NCBI RefSeq assembly: GCF_002873335.1
Contig: NZ_MCUW01000089.1
Location: 186,001-250,000 of the forward strand
DNA: 64,000 nucleotides
Direction of reading: 5' to 3'
Source of the DNA: Vibrio sp. 10N.286.49.B1
GTDB taxonomy: Bacteria > Pseudomonadota > Gammaproteobacteria > Enterobacterales > Vibrionaceae
Below, one piece after another: positions 33,279 through 51,685 of this stretch (within the stretch, counting starts at the first letter, position 1; each line of letters starts with the position of its first letter). The notes under the pieces were generated by a model. That model did not search any database, had not been told where the DNA came from, and saw only the letters and a program-made list of their open reading frames with translations. The translations under genes were made by a program, and so were the position numbers.

Positions 33279-33292
33279 TTGTTTTGGATCAA
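33279..33292. promoter_or_regulatory. FNR-like box upstream of ttrB
   Basis: TTGTT-TTGG-ATCAA matches the FNR consensus TTGAT-N4-ATCAA at nine of ten arm positions, 94 bp before ttrB. Anaerobic FNR control of ttr is established in Salmonella. Confidence 0.55.
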
Positions 33293-33306
33293 GTTTGATT
33301 CGAGTA

Positions 33307-33320
33307 TGTGGAAATCCACA
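33307..33320. promoter_or_regulatory. Dyad upstream of ttrB, TtrR-site candidate
   Basis: TGTGGA-AA-TCCACA is a perfect 6-bp inverted repeat with a 2-bp spacer, 66 bp before the ttrB ATG. Its place between the FNR-like box and the gene suits an activator or repressor site. Confidence 0.45.
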
Positions 33321-33385
33321 ATATCACGCAAGATCCACTTTTATCACAATAGAAACAAGCCCCCATTAATCTTAGCAGGTAAGTT

Positions 33386-34171
33386 ATGGACTCTTCTAAA
33401 CGACGCTTTCTCAGCGCCGTCACCGCAGGCGCTGCACTCATCCCGGTCGCAGGGATTAACACCGCTACGGCGGGCACCGTGATTCGCAATAACAATGAAC
33501 CAGATCGAAAGGGACAGGTAGGTAAACGCTACGCGATGGTCGTCGACCTTAGAAAATGTGTCGGCTGTCAGGCATGCACGGTCGGGTGCAGTATCGAAAA
33601 CCAAGCCCCTATCGGCCAGTTTCGCACCACGGTTAAGCAGTATGAAGTCACGCTAGACGACGGATCCAAACGCTCTAAAGAAGTCAAATCGTTCATGCTA
33701 CCTAGGCTGTGTAACCATTGCGAGAACCCGCCATGTGTGGCCGTTTGCCCCGTTCAAGCCACATTCCAGCGCGAAGATGGCATCGTCATGGTAGACAATA
33801 GCCGCTGTGTCGCCTGTGCCTATTGCGTCCAAGCTTGCCCTTATGACGCTCGCTTCATCAATGAAGAGACACTCACCGCCGATAAATGCACCTTTTGTGC
33901 CCATCGCCTTGAGCAAGGCTTGCTTCCTGCTTGCGTCGAAACCTGTGTCGGTGGCGCTCGTGTGATCGGTGACATCAATGACCCGTCCAGTGAAATTCGC
34001 CGCTTACTGACCGAACATCAAGACGATATTAAGGTCCTCAAACCGGAAGAAAACACCAAGCCTCATGTGTTTTATATCGGCATGAATGAGCGCTTCACAA
34101 GCCACGTGCAAGGTCAGCCTGCTATTTATGACCCACAAGACAGCAGCCACAACAAAGGAGAAAAGGTATGA
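33386..34171 (+). CDS. ttrB: Tetrathionate reductase iron-sulfur subunit TtrB
   Basis: A 261-residue protein with a Tat signal (SKRRFLSAVTAGAALIP) and four [4Fe-4S] motifs. The first is Cys58-x2-Cys61-x2-Cys64-x3-Cys68 (CVGCQACTVGC); later groups are LCNHCENPPCVAVCP, CVACAYCVQACP and CTFCAHRLEQGLLPACVETC. It carries electrons from the membrane subunit TtrC to the catalytic TtrA at the periplasmic face. It is the first gene of ttrBCA and overlaps ttrC by 4 nt. Confidence 0.92.
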   Translation: MDSSKRRFLSAVTAGAALIPVAGINTATAGTVIRNNNEPDRKGQVGKRYAMVVDLRKCVGCQACTVGCSIENQAPIGQFRTTVKQYEVTLDDGSKRSKEVKSFMLPRLCNHCENPPCVAVCPVQATFQREDGIVMVDNSRCVACAYCVQACPYDARFINEETLTADKCTFCAHRLEQGLLPACVETCVGGARVIGDINDPSSEIRRLLTEHQDDIKVLKPEENTKPHVFYIGMNERFTSHVQGQPAIYDPQDSSHNKGEKV

Positions 34172-35271
34172 ATATCACCGAAATCCTAGTCCCCGCTCAA
34201 GCGTCTGCTTGGCTTCCGTGGGCAGTACAATACTTTTTCTACATCGGTTCGGCTTATGCTGCCGCGATTCTGTTTTTGATCGCCCTAGTTTTTCACGGTC
34301 AAACCACCCATCGCCTGCGTGCCGCTCTCGTACTGACATTAGCGATTGGCGCGATTGTCGGTCCACTAGCATTAACCGGTGACTTACACCAACCTGGCCG
34401 AGCATGGCATTTCTATACCCACTTAACCCCTTGGTCGTGGATGTCACTCGGTTCAATTTTTCTGCCTGTTTTTTCCGGACTCGCGGTTGGGACAGCATGG
34501 CTGTACCTACGTAACGACCTGATGCGATTGAAACATAACGACAATGCTATTTTGAGACGTTTCGCGGTGCTATCGCTTGGTCATTGGCCAACCTCTCGAC
34601 GTCTCATGCTCAGTGTCGCCGTATTGACCGTGGTTTCTGGCTTATCTATCGCACTCTACACGGGGGCTGAGATTGCCGTGGTTCAAGCTCGTTCACTTTG
34701 GCATCAACCGGCTTCGCCATTACTTTGGTTTACCACCGCTTTTCTCGGCGCGATTGGTTTTTCATTAATTCTTTGGTTGTTATTCACTGGCAGAGAACAA
34801 CGTCACGCACTCTCTGCACCAGATATTCATTTGCTTAAACGCTCAACAACGATCAGCGCAATCCTGGCGTTCATTCTCGTCCCTATTTGGGCGTCAAATA
34901 ACGCCTCATTTTCGCTATTTGAAAATCATAGTTGGGTGGTGAATTTGGCCATCGTCAGTGTTTCTTTGCTTGTTTGCGTACTCGCTTCACGCCTCATTCT
35001 CAAGGACCAATATCAACCGCTGGGATTAGCGATTTTGGCACTGATCACCTTGGCGACATGCTGGGTCACTCGTTGGGTCACCATGATGGATGTACAAACT
35101 ATTGCCAAATTTGATGTTGGCCCATACCCCTATATTCTTCCGGCCGGAAGCAGCGGACTATTAGGCATTGTTGGCATGTTTGGGCTTTGGGTTGCGTTAG
35201 CAATGCTCGCGTCTGAACTCGTCGACTCAACGGAAGACACACCGGTCAGCACTACGCTTACCCACCACTAA
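34168..35271 (+). CDS. ttrC: Tetrathionate reductase membrane subunit TtrC (NrfD family)
   Basis: A 367-residue polytopic membrane protein with about nine hydrophobic segments. It has the NrfD-type features GDLHQPGRAWHFYTHLTPWSWMSLG (segment near residues 71-95) and SGLSIALYTGAEIAVVQARSLWH (near 152-174). It takes electrons from menaquinol and hands them to TtrB. The gene lies between ttrB (4-nt overlap) and ttrA (17-nt gap with a ribosome-binding site AAGAGGG). Confidence 0.9.
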   Translation: MNITEILVPAQASAWLPWAVQYFFYIGSAYAAAILFLIALVFHGQTTHRLRAALVLTLAIGAIVGPLALTGDLHQPGRAWHFYTHLTPWSWMSLGSIFLPVFSGLAVGTAWLYLRNDLMRLKHNDNAILRRFAVLSLGHWPTSRRLMLSVAVLTVVSGLSIALYTGAEIAVVQARSLWHQPASPLLWFTTAFLGAIGFSLILWLLFTGREQRHALSAPDIHLLKRSTTISAILAFILVPIWASNNASFSLFENHSWVVNLAIVSVSLLVCVLASRLILKDQYQPLGLAILALITLATCWVTRWVTMMDVQTIAKFDVGPYPYILPAGSSGLLGIVGMFGLWVALAMLASELVDSTEDTPVSTTLTHH

Positions 35272-35288
35272 TTTAAGAGGGTTTCACA

Positions 35289-38200
35289 ATGGATAATAAA
35301 CGTCGTCAATTTTTGAAATCAGGTATCGCGGTGGGTGGTCTAGGCGCATTTGCGGCGGGTTATGCGACTACAACTAAACACATGGTTGAAGGGGTAATTG
35401 AGGGGACAGCTGGGCAGAAAACTCGAGATATCCACCACGGTAATTCACTTGAGCCTGAGTACAGCGTAAATTCAAATGGTAATCTGATCCCCAACCCAAA
35501 CCAGCGGGTTGCACCGTCGATGTGTTTTGGATGTTGGACACTATGTGGCCTTCGTGTTCGTATTGATAACCGAAATGACGAGATATTACGCATCAGTGGT
35601 AACCCTTATCACCCGCTTTCACATCAAAACCATATACCGTTTGAAACGCCAGTAAAAGATGCCTATCTAGGCTTGGCTGGAGAGTCAGGGTTAGAGGGAC
35701 GCTCAACGGCGTGTGCCCGAGGTAATGGCATGATGGAAATCCGCAATAGCCCTTATCGAATCACGCAACCGCTTAAACGAGTGGGCAAACGCGGCGAAGG
35801 GAAATGGCAACCCATCAGTTACGAGCAACTCATTGACGAAGTCGTTGAAGGTGGTGATTTATTTGGCGAGGGACACGTAGATGGTTTGGCCGCGATTCGT
35901 GATTTAGACACACCCGTTGACCCTCTTAACCCTGAATATGGCCCCAAAGCCAACCAATTACTGATGACCAATGCAGGTAATGAAGGACGTGATGACATAC
36001 TAAAACGCTTTGCTTTCAATAGTTTTGGTACACGGAACTTTGGACATCATGGTTCATACTGCGGCTATGCATTCCGAGCTGGCAGTGGCGCGTTCATGAA
36101 CGATCTCGACAAATTTTCTCATCTAAAACCTGACTTCGACAACGCTGAGTATGTGATATTTATTGGCATGTCACCGGCACAAGCGGGTAACCCGTTTAAG
36201 CGCCAAGCCCGTCAGCTTGCAAAAGCACGCACAGAAGGCAAACTTGAATACACCATCATCACGCCAAGCTTACCGGCAGGCTCATCCAGCTTAGCGGCGG
36301 GCGACAACAATAACTGGATTCCCATCAAACCCGCCAGTGACTCTGCGCTTGTGCTGGGGATGATTCGCTGGATTATTGACAACGAACGCTATAACGCGAC
36401 ATTCCTAGCCCAGCCAGGCGTAAGTGCAATGAAGAAGGCCGGTACGGCGCATTGGTGTAATGCCACTCACCTGGTGATTAGTGATCCTCACCACCCTCGC
36501 CAAGGCAGTTTTTTACGCGCCTCTGATATGAATCTGCCTTTTGAGGGAGAGGCGCAATCCGATACGGATCCCTACGTGATTGTCGATGCGCAAAGCAACA
36601 CGCTAGGCATCAATACGCAAGCCAACGAAGCAACGCTCTTTGTCGATCGCGATATTGAACTTGCAGGTGAAGTGGTACGGGTCAAATCATCGCTACAAAG
36701 ATTGAAAGAGGAAGCATTTAAACACGACCTCACGTTCTACAGCCAACAATGTGGCATTGCTGAAACCGAGATCAGCGCTCTCGCTAAGCGATTCACCAGC
36801 TACGGTACAAAGGCTGTGGTTGATACCCACGGTGGCAATATGCACACCAATGGTTTCTACAATGCCTTCACAATTGTCATGCTCAATGCCTTGGTTGGGA
36901 ACATTAATCGTAAGGGCGGCGCCATGGCGAAAGCGGGTGGCTACCCAACATCCGGTAAAGGCCCGCGTTATGATTTCACCCAGTTCGCGGGCAAAACCGC
37001 ACCTAAAGGTGTGTTTCTTTCACGCAGCAAGTTTCCTTACCAAAAAAGCAGCGAATACAAACGACGTGTGGCGGCGGGTCAGTCGCCTTACCCTACTCGT
37101 GCGCCTTGGTATCCGATATCAGCGCCATTGTTAACCGAGCATTTGTCTGCCGCTATTGATGGCTATCCGTATCGAGCTAAAGCATGGATCAACCACATGG
37201 CTAATCCGATTTATGGTGTACCCGGCTTGAAAACCCTGCTGGAAGACAAACTCAAGGATCCTAAAGAGTTGGGGCTGATCATCTCGATCGACGCGTTCAT
37301 CAATGAAACCACCGCACTGTCTGATTACATTGTGCCTGACACCGTGACCTATGAAAGCTGGGGGATGGCTACGCCTTGGCACGATGTGCCGGTAAAAACC
37401 GTCACAGCTCGCTGGCCTGTCGTGGAGCCACGCACAGAGAAAACCGCAGATGGCCGAGCGATTTGCCTAGAAGATTTTCTCATTGATGTCGCTAAAAAAA
37501 TGAAGTTAGGCGGTTTTGGTGACAAGGCGATTCCTGATGCTAACGGACAGTGGCATAGCATCCATACTGCGGAAGATTTTTATCTTCGCTCTGCCGCCAA
37601 CCTCGCATTTGTAAAAGGTGGCGTTCCAGACGTATCTGCCGAAGATATTGTTTGGTCAGGGTTAGAAAGACTCATGCCTGCCATGCAGAAAACCCTTACG
37701 CCCGATGAACTCAAGCGTGTGGCGTTTATCTTTGCTCGTGGCGGTCGTTTTGAGGATGCATCGCAAACCTATCAAGGTGAGCTGATGAAGTATAAGTGGA
37801 CGAAACCACTGGCCATCTGGAATGAAAAACTGGGCACCTCCAGAAACACCATGACGGGTGAATTTTACAGTGGATGTCCGACGTGGCACCCGCAAAAACT
37901 GAGCGACGGTACGCCACTTGAAGAGCAATACCCTAGCAGTGAATGGCCGTTCAGCCTCACCAACTTTAAGTCAAACATTCATAGCGCGGTATCGAATTTA
38001 TCACCTCGTTTGAATTCGATTAAAGGGGTGAACCCGGTTTACATCCACCCGTCAGATGCAGAAAAGGCCGGCATACAAACGGGTGACCGCTTTGTTGTAG
38101 AAACACCTGACGCCAGCACTGAAGCTTTAGCTATGGTAGTGGATGGGATTCGACCAGGCACACTCGGGTTTGAGCACGGCTTTGGTCACACTGAGCTTGG

Positions 38201-38381
38201 AGAGCGCGCGCACTGGATTGGCGATCAACAGCAACCGGTTAAAGCTATGAGAGGCGATGGCGTAAATATCAATGACATTGGCCTGGTCGACCCGACGCGG
38301 CAAGGTAAAGGGGTAATGCTGGATTGGGTGGTGGGTGCCGCGGCTCGGCAGTCTCTACCTGCTAAAATTCGTAAAGCCTAG
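35289..38381 (+). CDS. ttrA: Tetrathionate reductase catalytic subunit TtrA
   Basis: A 1030-residue molybdopterin oxidoreductase of TtrA length. The Tat signal is KRRQFLKSGIAVGGLGAF. An N-terminal [4Fe-4S] motif has Cys79, Cys82, Cys86 and probably Cys142 (STACARGNG). Cys258 in FGHHGSYCGYAF is the likely molybdenum ligand. The C-terminal molydopterin dinucleotide-binding domain carries IHPSDAEKAGIQTGDRFVVE. It reduces tetrathionate to thiosulfate in the periplasm, letting the cell respire without oxygen. The last gene of the operon, it is followed by a terminator. Confidence 0.93.
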   Translation: MDNKRRQFLKSGIAVGGLGAFAAGYATTTKHMVEGVIEGTAGQKTRDIHHGNSLEPEYSVNSNGNLIPNPNQRVAPSMCFGCWTLCGLRVRIDNRNDEILRISGNPYHPLSHQNHIPFETPVKDAYLGLAGESGLEGRSTACARGNGMMEIRNSPYRITQPLKRVGKRGEGKWQPISYEQLIDEVVEGGDLFGEGHVDGLAAIRDLDTPVDPLNPEYGPKANQLLMTNAGNEGRDDILKRFAFNSFGTRNFGHHGSYCGYAFRAGSGAFMNDLDKFSHLKPDFDNAEYVIFIGMSPAQAGNPFKRQARQLAKARTEGKLEYTIITPSLPAGSSSLAAGDNNNWIPIKPASDSALVLGMIRWIIDNERYNATFLAQPGVSAMKKAGTAHWCNATHLVISDPHHPRQGSFLRASDMNLPFEGEAQSDTDPYVIVDAQSNTLGINTQANEATLFVDRDIELAGEVVRVKSSLQRLKEEAFKHDLTFYSQQCGIAETEISALAKRFTSYGTKAVVDTHGGNMHTNGFYNAFTIVMLNALVGNINRKGGAMAKAGGYPTSGKGPRYDFTQFAGKTAPKGVFLSRSKFPYQKSSEYKRRVAAGQSPYPTRAPWYPISAPLLTEHLSAAIDGYPYRAKAWINHMANPIYGVPGLKTLLEDKLKDPKELGLIISIDAFINETTALSDYIVPDTVTYESWGMATPWHDVPVKTVTARWPVVEPRTEKTADGRAICLEDFLIDVAKKMKLGGFGDKAIPDANGQWHSIHTAEDFYLRSAANLAFVKGGVPDVSAEDIVWSGLERLMPAMQKTLTPDELKRVAFIFARGGRFEDASQTYQGELMKYKWTKPLAIWNEKLGTSRNTMTGEFYSGCPTWHPQKLSDGTPLEEQYPSSEWPFSLTNFKSNIHSAVSNLSPRLNSIKGVNPVYIHPSDAEKAGIQTGDRFVVETPDASTEALAMVVDGIRPGTLGFEHGFGHTELGERAHWIGDQQQPVKAMRGDGVNINDIGLVDPTRQGKGVMLDWVVGAAARQSLPAKIRKA

Positions 38382-38466: not shown

Positions 38467-40812
38467 CTAATTAATTGTCACCGTAATTGGCGCAGAAAAT
38501 ATATGGTAGCCATCAACATTGTGTTGGTCTTCGTTGCTCTCTTCAACTGCATCAAACTCATGGAAATACCGCGCAAGTATTTGTGCTTCCCCACTTGTTG
38601 TAAATATCAGTTTACCGCTGTCATCAAGTTGGTAGTCTGCCGAGCTCTCAATCACCACAAAGTGATTCGCATCCCATGTAATCAATTCTCCTATTTGAGT
38701 TTTGATTGTCGCATCAACCGCAACAACCGCGTCAACGTCAACGGTTAAGTCATGCGTTTCCACTTCAATATCCGTTACGAAATCGCTGCTCCATTGGATA
38801 TAATCGGTCGTCAAGCCGTGAATGCCAGCGGCATAATCACGCTGCTGATCTTGCTCGTTACGGTAAGTCCATGGCCAAACCGTTACACCTCGATGCTTGG
38901 CTGCTTCTACCGTGCTATTTGCTAACGCAGCGTAAGATGGGTTATAGGTGGTGGAGATAGGCTGCACTTTTTTAAGCATAGACAGCAACGTTGCGTTCTC
39001 ATCTCTACCTTCAGAATGCCCAGTTAACAAACCAACTGGGATCTCCGGCATCACATCTCCCATTCGCTTAGCCTGCTCTTCACTAAACGCAATCACAATC
39101 AGCTGGTCTGCCACATCATATCGCTCTGTTACTCGTGAAATTTCGTCCACGATGAGTGGGTTGCCACTCTTTATTTCTAAGAAATGAGTCATCTCCTCAC
39201 CTTTGAAAGTCTCGAAAAACTCATCTAGGGTTGGGACTTTCATATCAGAAACAGAGCCATCGATATTGAGTATATTCAATTGTTTAATCTCAGCTAAGCT
39301 CATCTCTTCGATAAGCCCCGTGCCATCGGTCGTTCTGTCAACCGTCGCATCATGGATCACCACAACATGATTATCTGCCGATAAGTAAACATCATACTCA
39401 TTACCATCGACGCCTAATTCCAACGCTTTTACCGCGCTCTCTAAGGTATTTTCTGGCAACAGCGAAGGTACGCCTCGATGGCCAATAAACAATGGCTTTC
39501 TTATCAGAGAGTTTTCAGGAAAGGCCGTCAATGCCTGATTAATTGTATCGGTATCATCAACAACAAGTCCATGGGCACCCAATGTCATTAGGTCAGCAGT
39601 CGATTCTGTTTCATCAGCTACCACCCACACCGTTAGCAAGCGACGCTGCAAGTAACGCATATTTTCTTTTGTTGCCCAGTTTTGTGGTACAACTACAATG
39701 CGTGACTTCGAACGAGTGGTATCACTCACCACGTCATGCCAATTAGAGATCGACTGATCATCACTTTGCGGTAAGAACTCAAAGGCACTTCGTACATTTG
39801 GTGACGCCTGACGTAAAACCTGCAAAGCATCAACATTATCCGATACCACAGTCACATCCAACGACTTTGTCTTGTTCAATAGTTCCGATAATTTCAATGG
39901 GTCAACGTCATTGGACATCCGAATAACAGGAATAGTATTAAGATCCATCTCTAGCAGTTCAGCTAAGCTACCAAGCGACATACCATGTAACGAAGTAAGG
40001 TCAAGGTTAGCATCAAGCTGCAACCACGCATTCGATACTGGAAGAGATTGCAGGTCATCAAGGGCTTGCACATTGGTTGTCACAATAGAGGGGGCCATCG
40101 CGATATTTGTCTCTGGCTCGTTGACTGTGTAGATTTGCTCGAGCTTTGGTAACGGTTCATGCTGTTCAGTGATCTTGATATCTTGTACTTTAAGCACAGC
40201 GCCTGCCGCCTGCAAACCGACATTGCCAAGCATTGGTAATATGTCTGCGTCGTGCAAAACCTGACCATTTAATGTCTGTTGAACTCGATTACCAAAAGTT
40301 GTAATTGTCGCTGTATAGATCTGCTCTGAATCAATATCTTGATCAAACGCCATCGTATCCATGACATCCCATTCGTCATTGTATCGAGAAGAGAGCTCAG
40401 TTCCATTACCGCTTGTCGCCCCTTGTCTAATTGCCATCTGGTAGTATGGCTGGTCACCGGCGATACGATATTTAATTCCCCCCCAACGAGAGCTATTGTT
40501 CGCCTCAGCTATGGTAAAGTTCACTTCAACTTTATAGTTAGCATGGCTAGCTACCACTTGTGGAAGTTCAATCGCAGTCGCGGTGTAGTTATCTGCTCGT
40601 CCATCAATATACAAGGAGCCATCTTCGATATAAGCATCACCAATATTGGTAATGATATCCCACCCTTCAGGTAGGCTACCCTCTTCAATACCTTCAAAAT
40701 TCTCATACACAATGACATTTGACTCGACAACGGTGTTGTCATCTTTATCATCACTGCATCCTACTAGCGTCAAAGCGACAAAAGACGTCACCCATAGTTT
40801 ATTGTTAGACAT
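38467..40812 (-). CDS. Large lipoprotein with C-terminal glycerophosphodiester phosphodiesterase domain
   Basis: 781 residues with a lipobox (LTLVGC, Cys19). The N-terminal region (about 35-210) looks like a jelly-roll/LamG-type binding domain (YENFEGIEEGSLPEGWD). A central part of about 220-430 contains a degenerate TIM-barrel-like stretch. The GDPD domain starts near 444 with GHRGVPSLLPENTLESA, then EYDVYLSADNHVVVIHDATVDRTTDGTG in segments, holding the two catalytic histidines and metal-binding acids. A short all-beta tail follows. It should cleave glycerophosphodiesters at the cell surface. It is divergent from a GlpR-like regulator. Confidence 0.82.
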   Translation of the reverse strand: MSNNKLWVTSFVALTLVGCSDDKDDNTVVESNVIVYENFEGIEEGSLPEGWDIITNIGDAYIEDGSLYIDGRADNYTATAIELPQVVASHANYKVEVNFTIAEANNSSRWGGIKYRIAGDQPYYQMAIRQGATSGNGTELSSRYNDEWDVMDTMAFDQDIDSEQIYTATITTFGNRVQQTLNGQVLHDADILPMLGNVGLQAAGAVLKVQDIKITEQHEPLPKLEQIYTVNEPETNIAMAPSIVTTNVQALDDLQSLPVSNAWLQLDANLDLTSLHGMSLGSLAELLEMDLNTIPVIRMSNDVDPLKLSELLNKTKSLDVTVVSDNVDALQVLRQASPNVRSAFEFLPQSDDQSISNWHDVVSDTTRSKSRIVVVPQNWATKENMRYLQRRLLTVWVVADETESTADLMTLGAHGLVVDDTDTINQALTAFPENSLIRKPLFIGHRGVPSLLPENTLESAVKALELGVDGNEYDVYLSADNHVVVIHDATVDRTTDGTGLIEEMSLAEIKQLNILNIDGSVSDMKVPTLDEFFETFKGEEMTHFLEIKSGNPLIVDEISRVTERYDVADQLIVIAFSEEQAKRMGDVMPEIPVGLLTGHSEGRDENATLLSMLKKVQPISTTYNPSYAALANSTVEAAKHRGVTVWPWTYRNEQDQQRDYAAGIHGLTTDYIQWSSDFVTDIEVETHDLTVDVDAVVAVDATIKTQIGELITWDANHFVVIESSADYQLDDSGKLIFTTSGEAQILARYFHEFDAVEESNEDQHNVDGYHIFSAPITVTIN

Positions 40813-41033
40813 TTAACATCTCCTTATTAGATAGTTATTATCCTATAGGCGATGAATTAATATCCTCTTTCACCTTAATGAACATTCTGTGAGAAAAACC
40901 CTCATATTTTTCATTAGAAAACTCTTGGTTTTTACAGATAATTACAAATACAGCCTTATTTAACCTCATTAATTAACTGTTAAGAAATATATTCAGATTA
41001 TTTTCATATGAACATTTTAATATAGGAACCAGC

Positions 41034-41783
41034 ATGACAAATTGTAGAAAACCAGAGATCCTCACTCTATTAGATAAAAATGGCACAATTACAACCAACG
41101 CACTCGCAAAATTGTTTTCTGTTACGCCACAAACAATATGTCGAGACATCAATGAGCTGTGTGATCAAGGACAAGCACGTCGTGTACATGGCGGTGTAAC
41201 ACTGCCTGCTAGTATGGATAATACTCATTACAACCAAAGAATTAGCAATAACAGTCAAGGAAAAGCTCTTATTGCCAAAATTGCCGCTAGGCATATCTTA
41301 CCGGGTCAAACTGTCTTTCTTGGTTACGGTTCAACCACCGCAAACCTTGCTTCTTTAATCAGTATCAAATCTCCGATTAAGGTGATCACCAATAATTTGG
41401 ATGTTGCGACAGCCCTGGAAAACAGCAACTCTGAAGTGTGGTTGTCCGGCGGTCGCGTGCGTAACCGTCAAAGAGACGTGACAGGCTATGCTACTGCCAA
41501 CTTCCTCAATAGTTTCAGGGCTGATATTGCCTTTTGTGGTGTGGGTGCCATTGACAAAAATGGCGATCTACTAGAGTTCAATTATGAAGAAGCTGAGTTA
41601 TCTCGAGTGATGCTATCAAACGCCAAGCAGAAAGTGATCCTAGCCGACCATACAAAACTAGGCAGACACGCATCGGTATTTTGTGAAAAGCTAGCCAATA
41701 TAGACATATTAATCACAGACATAGAAACCCAAGAAATTAAACAACTTTGTCAAAAACATTCAGTTAAAATTATATCCAATTAA
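41034..41783 (+). CDS. DeoR-family regulator, GlpR-like
   Basis: A 249-residue regulator. The winged helix (ILTLLDKNGTITTNALAKLF, TPQTICRDINELCDQGQARR-VHGG) is followed by the sugar-phosphate domain (LGYGSTTANLA, ITNNLDVATAL, WLSGGRVRNRQRDVTG, ADIAFCGVGAIDKNGDLLEF). The last motif, with its NYEEAELSRVML, is the form seen in GlpR, the glycerol 3-phosphate repressor. It lies between the divergent GDPD lipoprotein gene and the phosphodiester-glycosidase/phosphatase gene, so glycerol 3-phosphate or a sugar phosphate released by these enzymes is a plausible inducer. Confidence 0.8.
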   Translation: MTNCRKPEILTLLDKNGTITTNALAKLFSVTPQTICRDINELCDQGQARRVHGGVTLPASMDNTHYNQRISNNSQGKALIAKIAARHILPGQTVFLGYGSTTANLASLISIKSPIKVITNNLDVATALENSNSEVWLSGGRVRNRQRDVTGYATANFLNSFRADIAFCGVGAIDKNGDLLEFNYEEAELSRVMLSNAKQKVILADHTKLGRHASVFCEKLANIDILITDIETQEIKQLCQKHSVKIISN

Positions 41784-41800
41784 ATAACCAAAATCCATAC

Positions 41801-41823
41801 GATATATTGATATATTGATATAT
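41801..41823. repeat. Short tandem repeat of an 8-bp unit
   Basis: GATATATT is present in nearly three tandem copies between the regulator and the giant lipoprotein gene. It may be a slippage-prone tract in the promoter region of the downstream gene. Confidence 0.6.
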
Positions 41824-42082
41824 GGGAATTAAATAATTACAAACTGAACAATATAATATTATGTGAACGATGAATGGAAACTGTAACAAATCGCTTCTTA
41901 GTTATTTTTATAATTTTGATAATTACGTCATTTTATTCAGCCTACTCATAAACTTAAATCAAAAACAATTCCCAATGTAATATTATTTTAATGTTTAGAC
42001 TTTTTAGTGTAATAAACCATACATGCAGCATTCATCTCGCTCACTTACTGTCGTCACGATTTTTTATAGGAGATATAAACGC

Positions 42083-45000
42083 ATGTTATTGAAAGAGTAC
42101 ATTCCTCAGGTTCGGAATTTACTGTCAGTAAGTATTGTGGCTGCTTTGGTTGTTGGATGTAATTCAGAATCAGAAGACCGTGACTACATTGATGGAAACC
42201 CAGGCGGAGAGAATTTTGTCGCCAATATTATTGATCCGCCAAGCGACCTCGTTGATCGAATTAAACCCGCTATTCCCCCTAAGGTCATGGATGTAACAGG
42301 GCATCCGAACGAGCAAGTGCCTACCGAAATCAACCATTACCATGAATATCCAGTAAACCAAGATCTAATGTTGACACGCGGTACACTAAACCACACTCGT
42401 GATTCCGATATTATGACGATGGATTTCACCAGCGGCGCGGGTATTAATTTGATTCCTATTGAACGTTCTACAGGGCAGTTCAGTATGGAAACCACCACTG
42501 ATTCAGTCAATCACCTTATCGACCAAGGGCATAATGTTATCGGGGCAATCAACGCAGACCCTTACAACATGGTCAATGGTTGGAATCTAGGTGCAGTGAC
42601 AATCGATGGTGAGAACTTTACTGGTTGGGGGGTTTCACAAGAAGCCGTCATCATCGTCAACCAAGATGACTCCTTAGCTATCTGGGAACATACCCCAAAC
42701 TTTGAGCTCACGTGGGGCATTAACGACCAGTACCAAGGCAGTGTTGCCAATGTGTATTACTTCGACAAAGAAAACTATACCACACACTCTTTTTCTCAAG
42801 AAGGCGGTAACCTCAACGTTTACCCTGGTGACCGCTACCGAGGTACTGTGGACTTAACTGGCCGTACCGGTGCACTTGTGAAACCACAAATCAATGGTGT
42901 CAGCGTTGTTGCGAATGAAGACGATGGTTCTGCCATTGCCCAGTTCGCGCCTTTCGAGGGTGATATTGTACAAGTCATCGAAGACGACACAAACTATATC
43001 GTGCCTGCGGGGCATATTCTTGTCACTTCTCCCGATATCGATTTAGTCAACGGTGACCGACTCTCCACGACCTTCCAGACCGATGACCCTCGCTGGAGTG
43101 AGGTAAAGCACGCACTTGGTGCTGGCTTTAGAAACGTCATGTTAGTGAAAGATGGGCAATTGCATACCGATAATGACGAGTCTGCGATTAGTGGTCGAAC
43201 TGCATTTGGTATTCGCGCCGACGGCTCCGGATTTTTTTTAGTCGCAGACAAACCTATTGGCACCTTTTCTGATGGCATAACACTAAGAAAACTCGCTCAG
43301 ATTATGCAAGCTTATGGGGCGGTTGATGCCGTTAACCTCGATGGTGGAGGTTCAACAACCATGACCATGCGCATGCCTGGAGAAAAGTATAATCATGTCA
43401 TCAATGTTCCGTCCGATGGTTCTGAACGTGTGGTCGCTTCAAAGTGGGGACTACGACTCAATCCAGAGCGAGCATCTTATGATGATGCCATCGCTATTTT
43501 TCCAAAAGAGATGACCATCTTAGCAAACTCAACATACCGTAGGTTTAAGGCACTGGGTTACGACGGCGATTCGTTACACGAATCAGGTGAGCATGTGGAG
43601 TTTGGTATCAACGACCGCTCAATCGGCTTAATCGATGTCGATTCAGGTGCGTTTAGAGCCAGTGCCAATGCGGCAGAAGGTTTTATTATTGCTAACCTAG
43701 GTGAAAACCCTCAAGACGCGGATCATCTTAAGGGCGTTGCTAAAATCAATGTCGTCACCGACATCGATGAGATGTACTTTGGTAGTGATCAAATTACACT
43801 AGGCAGAGGCGAATCAACTACGATTTTACCAGTATTAACGGCGTCAGGGCAGATTGTCACCTACGAACCCCATGCGTTGAACTATACGCTGGACAACAAT
43901 CATAGCGGTCGAATCGACTCCGACACCGGTATCTTTTACGCTGCAGATATTCAGGGCGGTGAGGTTACTGTCACCGTCAGCTATACAAACAACGGTCAAG
44001 TGTTTGAATCGACTATCGACATCAACATTGGCTTACCACCAGTTATCATTGAAGACTTTGAAGGTTCAATCTCTCATTTATCCGCGATCGGAGCTCGTGA
44101 TCTCAATGTCGATATTTCTCAAGTAGATACACCCGTTTTTGATGGCGAATATTCTCTAGAATTATCGTGGGAAGCGGACCCAAATCAACCAGGTACATTT
44201 GGCGCCTATGTCGTCGATACCGACAAGGTCACCGAACTTCCAGGCTATCCTCGTCAACTTGGGGTCAATGTTTATATTCCAGAAGAGTTAGCCGGTAAGG
44301 TATGGTGGGTTCGAGGTCAGTTACGTGACGGTGATGGCAATGCAGTAGGCATTAATTACAACAATGAAGGTGAAGCTCTTCCAAGTCGCGGGTGGAACTT
44401 CATGACCGCTGATATTCCAGAAGGCCACGAGCTGCCTTTGACCTTTGATCAGCCCTTCCGATTCCTTGTATTGCAAACCGCTGAGCGTATCGACACTAGC
44501 GTGGTTCTTGATAACTTTACCGCGATTTATGATGTCAACACCGACCTCGCAGGTCCGTCGGTTACCCTTACCCCTTCTGACCGCGATACCGTAAATAGTA
44601 AAGATGTGACCGTTCGTCTGCAAGTATTTGATGAATCAGGCGTCGATTTTGATCGTATTGAGTTGGAGCTTAATGGTGAGATCATCTCAAGCGGAGAGAT
44701 CGAAAACAATGGTGACGACGCCTTCTGGGTTAAACTCCATAACCTTGATGACGGCTGGCACCGTCTCGACTATCGCGTTTTTGATAAGTTAGGTAACGCC
44801 TCTGCTGGTGATAGCCTATTCAATGTTATTACGGATGACGCTCGTATCTATATCGGTGGTGAACACGATACTATTTACGCGGGTGGGACGTTTAATCTGC
44901 CTATTCAAGCAACAAAAGCGGAGACCTTTTCAACATTTACATTATCACTCAATTACGACGCAACCAAAACCTCACTCAAGGTTCTTGCTGAAGATCTAGA

Positions 45001-46651
45001 GTTTGAAAATGTCATCGAGGAAAATGGATATTGGCAAGGAACATTTAACGGTTTTTCTGAAAATGTTCACACCCTAGCCCAGATTGAGTTAACGGTTGAT
45101 GGCTATGTTCAAAACAGCGCAGCATCACTTGTTATTAGTGGTGAGCTAGACGGCAAACCATTTTATTATCCAGTATTGAAGAAGGATATCGCCGGCAAGT
45201 ACATTGTCGTCACTGAGCACACCATTTCACATCAAGATGCACGAATCTTCATCACTGATGCTAACGGAGTGTCTGCCCCAGGAGTTGACGTCGAAAGGGT
45301 TTATTATGACGTAGCCAATGATTTGGTCACCGATGTTGAATTTATTGGTACTACTGATCAATTTGGTCTCGTTCGTTACCCTCCATTTGATGATAGCGAC
45401 AGCAGTATTGAGTTTACGTTGCGTGCATTTGATAGCGAAGGTGCTTCGTTAATGTCAAAACTTATGGCTCTGAAAGAGCGACTTACTGCGATACCTCGCT
45501 ACGCCTTCTTTATGCCCGGCAAGGATCAGAGTGAGGTAAAGGTCACTTGGTTCACTGATTCAGAGACTGAGCAGACGTACGCACGATTCGGTCAAAACAA
45601 CAACCTCAACCAAAGCGGTGTGGAATTAGAATCTGAAATCCTACCATTCTTTTATGGTCCAGAATCGGGCGTAGTTCGAGTCCATCATGCCACATTAACT
45701 GGTTTGCAAGCCGATACTGAATATCACTACCAAGTCGGTAACGATGATGCGTGGAGTGATGTGTTCTCATTCACCACTGACCGTCAAGACGAGGAAGTTC
45801 GCATTCATCTATTTGGTGATACCCAGACAACCAACGACTACCACGAAAACCATGGTTCACAACTGGTTTCTGAGATCTTTGCCAAAATGCAAGCGCAACT
45901 ACCCAACCCCGACCTAATCCTTCATGTTGGAGACATGACCGAGGACATGAGTGACTATCAACTCGTACGTCAATTCTTTGAGGCACTGGAGGGTGAAGGG
46001 CGCATGAGTTCAGTGATGTTTGCGCCTTCTATGGGTAACCATGAAGTCTACAATGAGGGGCGTCATAAGTACGAGTCTATCTTTAAATCACCAGCAAACG
46101 GCCCCTTTGATGCACCAAACAAGCAAGCCGTTTATAGCTTTGATTATGGCAACGCTCGCATTGGTGTCATTACGACAGAGTTCTTTACTATTGATGAATG
46201 GGTAACCATGGTTGACTGGATTGAAGAAGATATGGCTCAGTCAGAACAAAAGTGGAAGCTGCTCCTCATGCACCGTCCGCCTTATGAAGGAAACAAGGAC
46301 TCTGGAAATGAATGGCCAAAACGCTACCTACCGAGACTGGTAGACAAAGCCGGCATTGATTTGGTTATCGCAGGTCATGATCACATGTACTCACGCAGCC
46401 TACCGATGGCGCACGGACAACCTAATGAATCGGGTGCTACTTACCTCATTGCTGGGTCTGCTTCAATGAAGTTCTATGATGCTGACTTTGGCGGCATCGT
46501 ACCATTTGCCGATGTCCTCTATGACGACAATGTACACACCTATACCACGCTGCATATCCAAGGTGAATCACTTGAAGTTCACACCAGAAACCTAAGTGGA
46601 CAGCTAATTGACCGTACCATTTTAACACCTCGTGCATCACGTGGGTTTTAA
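42083..46651 (+). CDS. Giant lipoprotein: phosphodiester glycosidase (NAGPA) plus purple acid phosphatase
   Basis: 1522 residues from an ATG with AGGAGA upstream. The lipobox is VVGC (Cys26). Residues about 70-470 form a NAGPA/DUF2233-type phosphodiester glycosidase (INADPYNMVNGWNLG; VNLDGGGSTTMTMR near 418). A middle part of about 470-1130 has Ig-like and carbohydrate-binding-like beta domains. Near 1140 a fibronectin-like domain opens a purple acid phosphatase, with metal motifs GDTQ (about 1246), GDM (1283), GNHE (1318), HRPP (1396) and GHDHMYSR (1430). It could uncap a sugar-1-phosphodiester and then release phosphate. The gene is followed 11 nt later by a small lipoprotein gene. Confidence 0.82.
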   Translation: MLLKEYIPQVRNLLSVSIVAALVVGCNSESEDRDYIDGNPGGENFVANIIDPPSDLVDRIKPAIPPKVMDVTGHPNEQVPTEINHYHEYPVNQDLMLTRGTLNHTRDSDIMTMDFTSGAGINLIPIERSTGQFSMETTTDSVNHLIDQGHNVIGAINADPYNMVNGWNLGAVTIDGENFTGWGVSQEAVIIVNQDDSLAIWEHTPNFELTWGINDQYQGSVANVYYFDKENYTTHSFSQEGGNLNVYPGDRYRGTVDLTGRTGALVKPQINGVSVVANEDDGSAIAQFAPFEGDIVQVIEDDTNYIVPAGHILVTSPDIDLVNGDRLSTTFQTDDPRWSEVKHALGAGFRNVMLVKDGQLHTDNDESAISGRTAFGIRADGSGFFLVADKPIGTFSDGITLRKLAQIMQAYGAVDAVNLDGGGSTTMTMRMPGEKYNHVINVPSDGSERVVASKWGLRLNPERASYDDAIAIFPKEMTILANSTYRRFKALGYDGDSLHESGEHVEFGINDRSIGLIDVDSGAFRASANAAEGFIIANLGENPQDADHLKGVAKINVVTDIDEMYFGSDQITLGRGESTTILPVLTASGQIVTYEPHALNYTLDNNHSGRIDSDTGIFYAADIQGGEVTVTVSYTNNGQVFESTIDINIGLPPVIIEDFEGSISHLSAIGARDLNVDISQVDTPVFDGEYSLELSWEADPNQPGTFGAYVVDTDKVTELPGYPRQLGVNVYIPEELAGKVWWVRGQLRDGDGNAVGINYNNEGEALPSRGWNFMTADIPEGHELPLTFDQPFRFLVLQTAERIDTSVVLDNFTAIYDVNTDLAGPSVTLTPSDRDTVNSKDVTVRLQVFDESGVDFDRIELELNGEIISSGEIENNGDDAFWVKLHNLDDGWHRLDYRVFDKLGNASAGDSLFNVITDDARIYIGGEHDTIYAGGTFNLPIQATKAETFSTFTLSLNYDATKTSLKVLAEDLEFENVIEENGYWQGTFNGFSENVHTLAQIELTVDGYVQNSAASLVISGELDGKPFYYPVLKKDIAGKYIVVTEHTISHQDARIFITDANGVSAPGVDVERVYYDVANDLVTDVEFIGTTDQFGLVRYPPFDDSDSSIEFTLRAFDSEGASLMSKLMALKERLTAIPRYAFFMPGKDQSEVKVTWFTDSETEQTYARFGQNNNLNQSGVELESEILPFFYGPESGVVRVHHATLTGLQADTEYHYQVGNDDAWSDVFSFTTDRQDEEVRIHLFGDTQTTNDYHENHGSQLVSEIFAKMQAQLPNPDLILHVGDMTEDMSDYQLVRQFFEALEGEGRMSSVMFAPSMGNHEVYNEGRHKYESIFKSPANGPFDAPNKQAVYSFDYGNARIGVITTEFFTIDEWVTMVDWIEEDMAQSEQKWKLLLMHRPPYEGNKDSGNEWPKRYLPRLVDKAGIDLVIAGHDHMYSRSLPMAHGQPNESGATYLIAGSASMKFYDADFGGIVPFADVLYDDNVHTYTTLHIQGESLEVHTRNLSGQLIDRTILTPRASRGF

Positions 46652-46662
46652 GGAGAACAACG

Positions 46663-47439
46663 ATGAGTAAAACTCTATTTCCTGTGCTACTTGCCTCCAC
46701 AGCAGTGCTGATTGGCTGTAACGAGACTCACTACAACGATAACCTGATTCCCGTTGATAAAGAGGTACGTGGTTTCTGGACCATGTTATCCGATACAGAT
46801 TGTGAGCTTGCCGAGCACTGCTATCTTGACTATAGCAACCATAACAACAAACTCTATGCGATTGATGAGGGCGATCGCATGCTCACACTCAATGAGGTCA
46901 GTAAAGCCGAAACCGCCACCTCAGGGCGTTTAGGTGATGCCATATACCTCACAGCCTTTGAAGACGATAACGGCGTTCAGACCCCTCAGCCTCGCTTGCA
47001 AACGGACACCTTTAGCGACTTCGAAAGCCGACCGATATCTGACATCTTTACGATCCACGTTCGAGCAACTGGCGAACAAGGTTCTATTCTATCGCTCTGG
47101 AATGAGAACGGACTTGCGTTGCACCTTGAGGTGCTCGACGGTGTACTATTGGCGACGTTTGATAAACACCAAAAAAAGTTGTTTACCTCAATCGACAGCG
47201 AAGTATTTCAAGAGATACAAATCGTCTCGAATGGCGAAACGGTTTCTTTGATAAACCACTGTGAACAGGCTGGCGAGTTTGCCCGTACCTCAGGATCACC
47301 GATACTGAGTGACTCACCACTCAAGCTTACTGCCTACGAGATGAAAGGCGGATACACCGATGCCACACAGTTCACTGGTGCCATTGATGTCATTCGAATC
47401 TCTGACCGAGTTGAATCAAACATTTTCTGCAATCAGTAA
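46663..47439 (+). CDS. Small lipoprotein with LamG/concanavalin-like pattern
   Basis: 258 residues with a lipobox (VLIGC, Cys19) and the ribosome-binding site AAGGAG. After a cysteine pair (DCELAEHC) the rest is beta-rich in the order of a LamG/concanavalin-type fold (IFTIHVRATGEQGSILSLWN; LHLEVLDGVLLATFD; EIQIVSNGETVSLINH; GAIDVIRISDRVE). It is probably a glycan- or protein-binding partner of the giant lipoprotein, with which it forms an operon. No catalytic motif is seen and the family call is tentative. Confidence 0.65.
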   Translation: MSKTLFPVLLASTAVLIGCNETHYNDNLIPVDKEVRGFWTMLSDTDCELAEHCYLDYSNHNNKLYAIDEGDRMLTLNEVSKAETATSGRLGDAIYLTAFEDDNGVQTPQPRLQTDTFSDFESRPISDIFTIHVRATGEQGSILSLWNENGLALHLEVLDGVLLATFDKHQKKLFTSIDSEVFQEIQIVSNGETVSLINHCEQAGEFARTSGSPILSDSPLKLTAYEMKGGYTDATQFTGAIDVIRISDRVESNIFCNQ

Positions 47440-47463
47440 CAATCTGCCTAGCTAGGCTTATTC

Positions 47464-47491
47464 GGCACTCACCTCACACTTGGTGAGTGCC
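47464..47491 (+). terminator. Terminator after the lipoprotein operon
   Basis: A perfect 10-bp stem GGCACTCACC/GGTGAGTGCC with an 8-nt loop, followed by TACCTTTTG, lies 24 nt after the lipoprotein stop. Confidence 0.75.
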
Positions 47492-47672
47492 TACCTTTTG
47501 TCGTCCTTATTCACTAAGACTCCCCCGAAAAATTCTCGTGCTCCACAACCCCAAATCGCTTCCCATTGCGTGGCTTTTTTCGAGGCTTGCTGCATCCGTT
47601 AACGTTTATCACCCCCCTCCTTTCCCCCGTTTTAGGCCACGGCATATTCACATGACACGCCTGAGGAGCATA

Positions 47673-48131
47673 ATGATCGGCAGTGTAGCCATTAAAGAAG
47701 GGACTCCTGAATTAGGTAGCCACTTGCAAGCGGGAGAGATAACACTGCTGGTTGATAAAGCCCAACGTCCTTCTACTCGAAAGCTGCAAGTACTGCTATC
47801 TGAACAGAAGATACATTGGAATGGCTACGATGAACTCGCGCCAGACTTGATTTCCTCTAGAGTTGTCAGCGACTGGTGTCAGGCATCTGCCGTCTCTTTA
47901 AGCCGTTTAATTGAGATGATTATCGCCATCAATGATCCGTCTAAGATAGTCATTGGCGGGGGGTTAAACCTAAAGCTAGTCGAGACGATCGTTGACAATA
48001 TCGCCCTTAAAAATGGCACAAGAAAGGAAAAGATCGCCTTTGCAACGCCGGTCTTAACGGCTGAAGCTGAGCGAGGGTCACCTGCATTTGGTGCTGCCTA
48101 CCTGCCTTTACTTGAGGTCATGTATCAATAA
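47673..48131 (+). pseudogene. C-terminal fragment of a ROK-family kinase/regulator
   Basis: The 152-residue frame from the ATG at 47673 matches only the C-terminal half of ROK proteins: AGEITLLVD, then SRLIEMIIAINDPSKIVIGGG, and GSPAFGAAYLPL at the end. The N-terminal ATP-binding half is absent and the ROK zinc motif (CGCxxxxCxE) is missing. A GAGGAG sequence before the ATG would permit translation, so a functional short protein is not excluded. The frame stays open back to 47487, but those residues look non-coding. It follows a terminator and so would need its own promoter. Confidence 0.55.
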
Positions 48132-48277: not shown

Positions 48278-50047
48278 TTAAGACAAGGCCGGCCACTTAT
48301 CGAACGGTTGCTTTTCAAATACCATTTCACCTTTGTCGCCTTTACGGATGTTCAGCCACGCCTGCCAGTTTTCATTATCAATATCAGGATAATCCAATCG
48401 ATAATGGCTACAGCGGCTTTCGGTTCTCATCATCGAAGCCTTGAGCTTCATCTCTGCGGTAATGATCATATTTTTCGTTTCATGAGCGAGTCGCAGTTGA
48501 TGCCTGTCTTGTGCCATCAACATCTCTGCATGATGTTCCTTAAGCTCTTCGACATAGGCCAACGCCCCTTGCATCATGCGTGCTTTCTTCACATACAAGA
48601 CAAAATTGGGAATCATAACCCCTTGTAAAACCTGTGTAACCCAGGCAGGACTATAACCACTTTTTCGCTTAAGCGGCGCTAGGATCTCTTGTTTAATCTG
48701 TGCCTGACGAGCCTTTGGTGCCTGATACGAAACAACATCAAAGCTCGCCTTCGCGGCCGCTTCACCGGCAAACGCGCCCTGCACCGCAGAACCGGCCAAC
48801 GACCCTCCAATCTGGGTATAAATACCACCTGACATATATGATCCCAGAGCATCTCCGGCGGCATACAAGCCTGGGATGGTGCTCAAGCCTGTTTCATCGA
48901 TTGGTACAAGACCTTCGGCTTTATGAATCGCCATGCCTGCCGTTGAGCCACCCACTTGTTCTCCGCCCATACCGGGAGGGCCTTCGTGGCGTTTTTTAGC
49001 AAATAACGACAACAAGCCACTCTCTTCTGGAGGACGAGGAGGCATGTCTGTTTGCCTAAATGCCTCTGGCGTAAACGGTCCTTTAGGAAAGGTTGTTGTC
49101 ACTGATGATGCGTCGTCACTCGCTCCATTTCCAGGCCCAGGAGGCCCCATTTTAATCGGCGCACCTTGGGTGTATGCCTGATAGTTCATGTCTACCCCTA
49201 AATGGTGATTGACCTGAACCCCGGTCAAGCCCGGTTTTTCTTCTACCTGACCATGCCAATTGTCGTAACATGAACCCGAATTTTCTGCTGAACCTGGATG
49301 GCCATCATTCCACTCCTTACCCGTCACGACCGCGCCGATGTCATAGGCCATAATCGTGCCATCATGAGTTAGGTCGCACATCGGGAATCCATTGGGTTTA
49401 AAGCCGCCAGAACCGGTACAAAGCACCACGGTTTTCGCGTTGTAAAATATGACCTTATTCTCATCCATACTAAAACCTGCTGCGCCAACCACGCGCCCAT
49501 CTTCTTTCATAAGGTGGGTAATCATGATTCGTTCTTGCAATGGAACATTGCGCGATTCCATTGGCCGCATAAAGGACTTATTGCACAGCGGTGAATCAAA
49601 GAACCCCCAAGATTTTAGCTCTTGGACTCGAGCATACGAGTGCTCTGCTACCTGACGTGTAAACACCGGATTACTCGTCCCCAGTGAGGATTCAGAAACC
49701 TTAGCAACAAATTCATCAATGCTCACCGACGCATTGGCTTTGTCATAGGAAAAAATCCCCTTTGCAAAAGGCGTCAAACCCGAGCTACCTAGGCGTCCCT
49801 TTGACACCATCATTACGCTAGCGCCGGCATCATGGGCCTTCACCGTGGCAAAAAGCCCTGCCATACCGCCACCAATAACCAACACATCGGTATCATGTGA
49901 TTCTTGAGTAAACGTTTCTGCATCGATCTTGGGCATGTTCTCAACCGGTGTACCGGCAAAGACAGAGGAGGCAAGCATGGAAGCACCAATCACGCCCCCA
50001 GCGACACCAATAAATTGACGTCTGGATAAATCGGTTTTATTACTCAT
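48278..50047 (-). CDS. Tat-exported FrdA/AprA-like FAD reductase
   Basis: 589 residues with a Tat signal (SRRQFIGVAGGVIGASMLAS). The FAD motif is VLVIGGGMAGLFATVKAHDA, and the second flavin segment is GLYAAGDALGSYMSGGIY. The C-terminal helical domain ends with ESRCSHYRLDYPD, as in fumarate reductase, APS reductase and related flavoproteins. An unusual Pro/Gly-rich insertion (GPPGPGNGASDD to PPGMGGEQ, roughly 300-375) interrupts the capping region. The ATG at 50047 has GGAGGT upstream. It probably reduces an unidentified organic acceptor outside the cytoplasm, fed by the ferredoxin and membrane flavoprotein of the same operon. Confidence 0.8.
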   Translation of the reverse strand: MSNKTDLSRRQFIGVAGGVIGASMLASSVFAGTPVENMPKIDAETFTQESHDTDVLVIGGGMAGLFATVKAHDAGASVMMVSKGRLGSSGLTPFAKGIFSYDKANASVSIDEFVAKVSESSLGTSNPVFTRQVAEHSYARVQELKSWGFFDSPLCNKSFMRPMESRNVPLQERIMITHLMKEDGRVVGAAGFSMDENKVIFYNAKTVVLCTGSGGFKPNGFPMCDLTHDGTIMAYDIGAVVTGKEWNDGHPGSAENSGSCYDNWHGQVEEKPGLTGVQVNHHLGVDMNYQAYTQGAPIKMGPPGPGNGASDDASSVTTTFPKGPFTPEAFRQTDMPPRPPEESGLLSLFAKKRHEGPPGMGGEQVGGSTAGMAIHKAEGLVPIDETGLSTIPGLYAAGDALGSYMSGGIYTQIGGSLAGSAVQGAFAGEAAAKASFDVVSYQAPKARQAQIKQEILAPLKRKSGYSPAWVTQVLQGVMIPNFVLYVKKARMMQGALAYVEELKEHHAEMLMAQDRHQLRLAHETKNMIITAEMKLKASMMRTESRCSHYRLDYPDIDNENWQAWLNIRKGDKGEMVFEKQPFDKWPALS

Positions 50048-50052
50048 CGTGA

Positions 50053-50268
50053 TTACCTCCAAGAAACCATAACGGGTAAGCTCTTTTCAGGCGTGATCGT
50101 GATCGCACCAACCGGACAGTACAAACGGCATAGATGACAAATCTGACAATCTTCTGGGTACGCGATGACGGCTTTTTTAGTTTTTGCATCAAACTGAATA
50201 ACGTCAGTTGGACAGCTCTCAACACAGGTTTTGCAACCTATACAACCTGAAATCTGATGAATTGGCAT
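50053..50268 (-). CDS. Two-cluster [4Fe-4S] ferredoxin
   Basis: A 71-residue ferredoxin with two cysteine groups, CIGCKTCVESCP and CQICHLCRLYCP, each C-x2-C-x2-C-x3-C-P. The ATG at 50268 has GGTAAC upstream; a longer frame begins inside the preceding gene and adds residues foreign to the family. No signal peptide is present. It sits between the membrane flavoprotein (22-nt gap) and the Tat flavoprotein (5-nt gap), so it is likely an electron-transfer or assembly partner of that reductase, in the manner of the small AprB-like subunits. Confidence 0.85.
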   Translation of the reverse strand: MPIHQISGCIGCKTCVESCPTDVIQFDAKTKKAVIAYPEDCQICHLCRLYCPVGAITITPEKSLPVMVSWR

Positions 50269-50290
50269 AATGTTACCTCTAAATCTGTGT

Positions 50291-51685
50291 TTAAAATGAA
50301 AGCTTCTCGTAATGAATATCAGCGGGCGAAATCTCAAGGTCATTCAGGCTGGTTTTCACTGCTTCAAGCATGCCCTCAGGGCCACACAAATAGACACTCC
50401 AATTATCGGCCTGAGCACTTTTTAGTACTTTACTGATACATTCTTGGTCAATCACACCATGAGAAACCTGCGCCTTATTGGTTGGGTGAACACAAACCAA
50501 TTGTTGAGAGAAATCCGTCATCGTCCTTTGGAGCTCTGCAATTTCGTCTTGTAAAACCATCTGTTCAAAATCACTATTACCGTAAATAAGACGCACTGGG
50601 CGTGTGTCTTTGGCACATGCCAATTCGCGTAACAGGCTTAACATGGGCCCAATTCCCGCCCCACCCGCAATCAAAATGATGCCATCCGCTTTTTTACTGT
50701 CATCCAAATTCATACTGCCGTAAGGGCCGTCAATATAGACATCTTGGCCGATTACAAGCGTATGCAAACTCGCGGTGTAATCGCCTAGCTCACGAATCAC
50801 CATTGAGAACTGAGGGAGATCATCGGCGCACGAGGCGATAGAAAAAGGATGGTCATTTAGGTTAAATACGGACTGACTGCTATTCATCCACACAAATTGA
50901 CCCGCCTCAAACTCAAAACGACCTTGGTCCTTTTTTTCCAGTGTTATCTGCCAATCACGACTACTGACCTTAGTCACATCAACCAGAGTAAAAGGTTGTG
51001 ACTTAATGACCACTTTCTTGACTGTGTGGTTATAAATCACAAGGGTGACCGAAGCGGTACAAAGCGCCCACCAAATCGCATTAAATTGCGATTCAAATTG
51101 CCCATGACTGCCCACGCTGGTTACGTGTATTGTGGCTAAAATAGCAACCGCTACAAATCCCAACATGTGTGTCAGGCGCCACGTCTCATAACGCATTTTA
51201 ATTGTGTTTTTAAACACCGCCATCAGCGTCCAAATAATCATCGTCACCCAAGCAATGAGGCCCGTTAGCATAGTCGGTGCGGTGAGCACTTCGACTAAAC
51301 TCGTCAAACCATCATCAAAAGACTGAATAAAGCGCGGGGCGAGAATAAAAACAGGATGCAGAAGAAAAAATACCCCAAGCCATTGTCCAACACTTTTGTG
51401 TTTCGCCATGCTCCAATCAATATTGGCAAAAAGAGGCAGTGCCTTAACTCGACTGGCTAAAGGGAATTGAATGAAAAATGCCATCATGGCAAGTGCATTA
51501 AATAGGCTTAACGCACTCAGGTAGAGCCCTTTATTGTCCATATCTAAAAATTGTGTGGCGAGAAAAGGGAGCACCAATAACACAGCATAGCCTGCAGCCA
51601 ACCTTCCGTGTCTAATCGTCTGTTTTATCCTACGAAATCTTGGCGGTTCACCCGTCAACGAGATTGCTTGCTTCATCATTTTCAT
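50291..51685 (-). CDS. Ferric-reductase-like membrane flavoprotein (NAD(P)H oxidoreductase)
   Basis: 464 residues with six predicted N-terminal membrane segments (heme-ligand histidines possible in GVFFLLHPVF, RLTHMLGFVA and ATIHVTSVG) and a C-terminal FAD/NAD(P) module (HPFSIASCADD near residue 270; GGAGIGPMLSLLREL near 345; YLCGPEGMLEAV at the end). It is similar in layout to the protein at 22256-23581 but belongs to a three-gene operon with a ferredoxin and a Tat flavoprotein. The first ATG has a ribosome-binding site too close; the third codon (ATG at 51679) has GGGT at better spacing and may be the real start. Confidence 0.8.
   Translation of the reverse strand: MKMMKQAISLTGEPPRFRRIKQTIRHGRLAAGYAVLLVLPFLATQFLDMDNKGLYLSALSLFNALAMMAFFIQFPLASRVKALPLFANIDWSMAKHKSVGQWLGVFFLLHPVFILAPRFIQSFDDGLTSLVEVLTAPTMLTGLIAWVTMIIWTLMAVFKNTIKMRYETWRLTHMLGFVAVAILATIHVTSVGSHGQFESQFNAIWWALCTASVTLVIYNHTVKKVVIKSQPFTLVDVTKVSSRDWQITLEKKDQGRFEFEAGQFVWMNSSQSVFNLNDHPFSIASCADDLPQFSMVIRELGDYTASLHTLVIGQDVYIDGPYGSMNLDDSKKADGIILIAGGAGIGPMLSLLRELACAKDTRPVRLIYGNSDFEQMVLQDEIAELQRTMTDFSQQLVCVHPTNKAQVSHGVIDQECISKVLKSAQADNWSVYLCGPEGMLEAVKTSLNDLEISPADIHYEKLSF

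Follow-up and report, generated by a model that had tools for sequence, protein, structure and literature searches.

The four adjoining genes within positions 38467..48131 of the 64,000-nucleotide stretch of Vibrio sp. 10N.286.49.B1 analysed here (hereafter the window) had been predicted to form one dedicated system for scavenging a phosphodiester-linked glycan. According to the open reading frame (ORF) listing, they encode a GDPD lipoprotein on the reverse strand and then, on the forward strand, a DeoR-family regulator, a NAGPA-metallophosphoesterase lipoprotein and a small lipoprotein, with the GDPD and regulator genes divergent (Table 1). What looked like a novelty of four genes comes apart, on our analysis, into two modules of two genes each, both open to testing. 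We consider it probable, though by no means assured, that these are independently inherited and merely lie side by side, module A (pair A) being a surface glycerophosphodiesterase with its own repressor and module B (pair B) serving sugar-1-phosphodiester hydrolysis followed by phosphate removal. Our verdict is that the two were brought together by chance or by recent insertion. Gene content, domains, conservation of the two pairs and of their catalytic and metal-binding residues, and lack of conservation of the four genes together were all observed directly, and the enzyme classes of both pairs are well supported.

Table 1. Features of the locus, in window coordinates.
Feature	Position	Strand	Remarks
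GDPD lipoprotein (pair A)	38467..40812	-	781 aa; lipobox start; C-terminal beta domain
Divergent promoter region of pair A	40813..41033	.	Two TGAACATT octamers, at 40879-40886 and 41009-41016
DeoR-family regulator (pair A)	41034..41783	+	249 aa; not GlpR itself
NAGPA fusion lipoprotein (pair B)	42083..46651	+	NAGPA domain, Ig-like region (weak matches), PAP-type (purple acid phosphatase-type) N domain, calcineurin-like metallophosphoesterase
Small lipoprotein (pair B)	46663..47439	+	258 aa; 11 bp downstream of the fusion
Terminator-like hairpin after pair B	47464..47491	+	Such sites at chance level in the window (10 seen, 8.5 expected)
ROK-family C-terminal stretch	47487..48131	+	20.8 bits, just below the 22.9 cut-off; in neither pair

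Linkage of the genes across genomes

The survey of the genus covered 227 Vibrio genomes, with thresholds of E <= 1e-50 for the enzymes and E <= 1e-60 for the regulator that were set to exclude generic paralogues of the GDPD, phosphatase and DeoR types; matches to generic GDPDs turn up in 146 of 148 genomes. Four genomes carry the NAGPA fusion (the window genome G000, G052, G083 and G115) and three the GDPD lipoprotein (G000, G107 and G232), the window genome being the only one of the 227 to hold both. The regulator scored above 500 bits in the same three genomes as the GDPD lipoprotein, the next matches being at about 252 bits in G016 and G193, and the two genes are adjacent and divergent in all three. 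As for pair B, 13 of 16 loci have a small-lipoprotein homologue next to the NAGPA fusion and behind it, namely the window, G052 and all named loci but one (11 of 12), in Alcanivorax, Alloalcanivorax and Marinobacter; tblastn found none in G083, G115 and Pseudoduganella. This count was made by tblastn since the ORF caller misread some high-GC stretches, and the 12 named loci are those found by an alignment scan of contigs with two peptide patterns, a single-protein scan having found none.

Linkage, on which the original prediction depended, is conserved within each pair, and the four genes were found together in the window only. At the 15 other NAGPA loci no regulator homologue was seen beside the fusion, ORF calls there being unreliable in high-GC stretches, and a DeoR of this type (E <= 1e-60) is absent from the three other Vibrio genomes with pair B orthologues. 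A. xenomutans, Alcanivorax sp. 24 and M. daepoensis, three of the 12 genomes with a named NAGPA locus, also encode a full-length GDPD lipoprotein, each time unlinked to the fusion; in M. daepoensis both genes seemingly lie on one contig of 1,045,162 bases, the fusion at about 116-120 kb and the GDPD gene at 388-391 kb, some 268 kb apart. Among the matches listed, the closest named relatives of both enzymes are from Vibrio (8000 candidates were scored in each search, one of which gave the best 120 of 338 matches).

The GDPD lipoprotein and its divergent regulator

The assignment of the first gene to a GDPD lipoprotein was confirmed by its match to PF03009 (131.5 bits, cut-off 23.6) and by its lipobox, LVGC followed by SDDKDDN. 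The protein consists of a CBM66-like jelly roll (residues ~37-219), a degenerate GDPD-like barrel (~222-437) and an intact GDPD barrel (438-682), in which H445, E472, D474, H487 and E546 are invariant in 13 of 13 sequences; we take these to be the catalytic His pair and the metal-binding carboxylates. The CBM66-like domain was called from a structural match, its sequence match to PF06439 (25.9 bits) being just below the cut-off of 26.8. The central part matches no informative Pfam family and aligns with the active barrel in a pairwise hhalign comparison, as opposed to a database search (92.8%, E 4e-7, 152 columns), over a region downstream of the first catalytic motifs. A parallel that we considered is the SHV3 type of tandem GDPD found in plants. 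With the GlpQ/UgpQ-type phosphodiesterases (PF03009), the window protein has in common the fold, the conserved residues and the likely product, glycerol-3-phosphate; it differs from them in being a lipoprotein with a CBM66-like domain, a degenerate first barrel and a divergent DeoR gene of its own.

Three lipobox-like starts occur in the locus, as had been claimed together with the divergent layout; the other two read VVGC followed by NSESEDR and LIGC followed by NETHYND. The GDPD protein carries a D/N-rich sequence after its lipobox (CSDDKDDN), a pattern that the other two fit less clearly, and the genome encodes GspN (182.9 bits). A table of verified or putative lipoproteins dependent on the type II secretion system (T2SS) in Acinetobacter baumannii contains a GDPD whose lipobox leads into CNDDDKTE, and we read a D/N-rich stretch in this position as a pattern of that table, though not of every row (PMC12802150). 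The likeness lies in these two motifs and the presence of GspN; membership of the two GDPDs in one family was not established, CNDDDKTE occurring in 0 of 201 fetched proteins. We read the window protein as probably displayed at the cell surface, for which T2SS/GspN would be a candidate route.

The regulator belongs to the DeoR family (DeoRC 153.9 bits, cut-off 31.8; HTH_DeoR 56.3 bits, cut-off 21), so that the description "GlpR-like" stands at the level of the family. GlpR itself is ruled out, as the protein reaches 177 bits against the NF008154 curated cut-off of 331, which another gene of the same genome passes with 367; it is 33% identical to the genome's own GlpR. It shares its domain structure with GlpR and with Ugp-linked DeoR regulators, and its relatives stand beside Ugp-type genes and a GDPD. 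In G016 and G193 (L088 and L089), a Ugp-like ABC operon is accompanied by a DeoR gene and an Exo_endo_phos-type protein, with a HAD phosphatase as well in G016; the ABC proteins were profile-scanned at G193. This operon is possibly another phosphodiester uptake system.

Both octamers of the promoter region resemble a GlpR half-site, and we regard TGAACATT as a candidate operator, as a lead only; none occurs upstream of pair B. We propose that the DeoR-family repressor would control the divergent GDPD gene, and that the lipoprotein would hold a glycan via its CBM66-like domain and cleave glycerophosphodiesters. The glycerol-3-phosphate released would enter through the genome's Ugp transporter, and this compound or a related phosphate ester would lift repression. 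The idea of a phosphodiester enzyme under a DeoR switch thus fits pair A; as one switch for all four genes it is not supported.

The NAGPA fusion and the small lipoprotein

The start of the fusion is more likely at 42083 than at 42023, which is also possible, as a signal peptide (MLLKEYIP...) and the 1522-aa length of the database copy indicate. The protein matches NAGPA (PF09992, 97.6 bits, cut-off 25), Pur_ac_phosph_N (60.5, cut-off 30) and, after the latter, Metallophos (67.7, cut-off 21.5). Its NAGPA domain, the only one in this genome, exceeds the PF09992 cut-off and has the fold of solved NAGPA on a structure model of middling confidence. The metallophosphoesterase was aligned in 28 sequences (P0001, P0003-P0028 and the window protein; P0002 is the window's own, and entries from P0029 onward were excluded as partial or distant). 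The residues D, D, N, H, H, H, the metal ligands of calcineurin-like metallophosphoesterases, are invariant in 28 of 28, with DxQ instead of DxH in motif I. Purple acid phosphatases have a GDxxY tyrosine ligand; here all 28 sequences have an acidic residue instead, E in 13 and D in 15, which rules out a purple acid phosphatase in the strict sense. The domains of the predicted NAGPA-purple acid phosphatase fusion were recovered, and its strict enzymatic label was not. In G083 (L040 1489-9193), a sugar cluster lies directly upstream of the fusion, with ROK, an epimerase-isomerase fusion, an MGH1/GH63-like protein, two deacetylases and an esterase.

In animal lysosomes, the uncovering enzyme acts first and acid phosphatase second, as two separate enzymes. 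The window protein differs from animal NAGPA, the mannose-6-phosphate uncovering enzyme, in sharing one chain with a phosphatase domain. In the two-gene operon of module B, the NAGPA domain would hydrolyse a sugar-1-phosphodiester first and the PAP-like metallophosphoesterase would then take off the exposed phosphomonoester, with the small lipoprotein as partner. More specifically, and as a tentative proposal on which we would not insist, the fusion may be a single-chain "uncover and dephosphorylate" enzyme that strips sugar-1-phosphate caps, then phosphate, from phosphoglycans in the environment, for instance phosphomannans, its metallophosphoesterase site carrying Glu/Asp and Gln where Tyr and His/Gly are usual. 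That a phosphodiester is cleaved and the phosphate then removed is plausible for pair B alone; a joint activity of this kind by the four genes is not supported. The small lipoprotein had been described as LamG-like; its score against Laminin_G_3 is below the cut-off (PF13385, 12.8 bits, cut-off 27.6), neither it nor two homologues matched LamG at E 0.1, and a ConA/LamG-like fold is a possibility.

Cell-surface calcineurin-like phosphoesterases that may be fused to NAGPA were reported in the ShfP radiation, where Ig and LamG domains are mentioned too (PMC11188070), so that these elements are common to it and pair B; the section on fusions has neither an operon of NAGPA fusion and small lipoprotein nor the E/D replacing the PAP tyrosine. 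NAGPA occurs together with another enzyme in Bacillota (PMC12419801), and a phosphodiester glycosidase family protein is among putative effectors dependent on the type I secretion system (PMC8376066). The enzyme types are thus already known, NAGPA-calcineurin fusions and a GDPD among T2SS-dependent lipoproteins being in print; our literature search, whose coverage left out most subscription papers, found neither the four-gene locus nor the operon of pair B described.

Genomic setting and alternative explanations

The host genome comprises 5.15 Mb in 89 contigs. To the left of the four genes lies an operon read as tetrathionate-reductase-like (31373-38381; the large subunit was read, not profile-scanned), whose sensor kinase has Phosphonate-bd, HATPase_c and HisKA domains. 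On the right is a pair encoding a TAT-type fumarate-reductase-like flavoprotein and a ferric-reductase-like protein (48278-51685), which recurs in G013 (77% and 64%). Three relatives carry the left-flank gene and one carries the right-flank pair, in each case with neither module alongside, and the segment therefore looks like an accessory insertion. The span ends in a fifth feature beyond the four genes first described, a ROK-family stretch that lacks its N-terminal half and is probably the pseudogene remnant of a decaying kinase or regulator gene. Farther away are a membrane protein with a heparan-alpha-glucosaminide N-acetyltransferase domain (PF07786, 12548-13816) and a GH36 alpha-galactosidase (61590-63707) about 15 kb from the NAGPA fusion; the latter's counterpart in G052 (L039:2433-4535; 54% identical) is about 6 kb away from the fusion there.

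A single system in which the DeoR switch governs all four genes for the breakdown of a phosphodiester-linked glycan appears quite improbable. The genes do adjoin in the window, two NAGPA-fusion loci are near sugar-catabolic genes (the G083 cluster, and ABC permeases and GH38 in Pseudoduganella), and the GDPD lipoprotein occurs in a quarter of the named NAGPA genomes; set against this are the single Vibrio genome with both enzymes, their separation in the three genomes outside the genus, and the lack before pair B of the octamer and, in the other Vibrio genomes with its orthologues, of such a DeoR. It is also unlikely that the enzymes remodel the cell's own surface, trimming phosphodiester substituents or teichoic-acid-like links of its capsule or lipopolysaccharide rather than using a foreign polymer as food. 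Teichoic-acid-like capsule polymers with glycosylglycerol phosphate backbones do exist in Gram-negatives (PMC8262930), and pair A sits amid polysaccharide synthesis genes in G107 and G232 (YjbH, PF06082, by Pfam in G107; Ugd, GalU and pseudaminate-type genes by sequence reading). However, such genes are 0 of the 27 window ORFs scanned (54 listed), and the regulator's kinship with Ugp-linked DeoR proteins points to catabolism. We likewise give little credence to general phosphate scavenging, in which both modules would free phosphate during starvation with no particular polymer as target. The chemistry would yield glycerol-3-phosphate and phosphate, and the hosts of pair B include Alcanivorax, hydrocarbon users to which a sugar polymer would be of little value; yet Pho-box-like matches in the window at 3 mismatches are 0 against 0.32 expected, with an E. 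coli consensus from which Vibrio sites may differ.

The reading of two independent modules has its own weak points. The co-occurrence of GDPD and DeoR in 3 of 227 genomes amounts to two lineages, because G107 and G232 are 96-98% alike in the pair A genes, and at the three non-Vibrio loci read the GDPD lipoprotein lacks a neighbouring DeoR. The TGAACATT motif was chosen post hoc, from an alignment already inspected; it is no commoner than chance across the window (4 seen, 4.3 expected) and is lacking in G193. The named NAGPA loci are limited to those reached by the two peptide patterns, the predicted NAGPA model has a mean pLDDT of 59.3, and Foldseek TM-scores of NAGPA-type matches are low (0.15-0.33 by query). 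The substrates of both pairs, along with surface location, operator, inducer, regulation and the order of pair B's reactions, are what we infer from these data.

If pair A acts as we read it, it would provide a glycerophosphodiesterase at the surface, under a switch of its own, feeding the Ugp route. Pair B, if it works as read here, would assign a class of substrate and a mechanism in two steps to the NAGPA fusions of bacteria, and would offer a handy enzyme for taking off phosphodiester-linked sugars.

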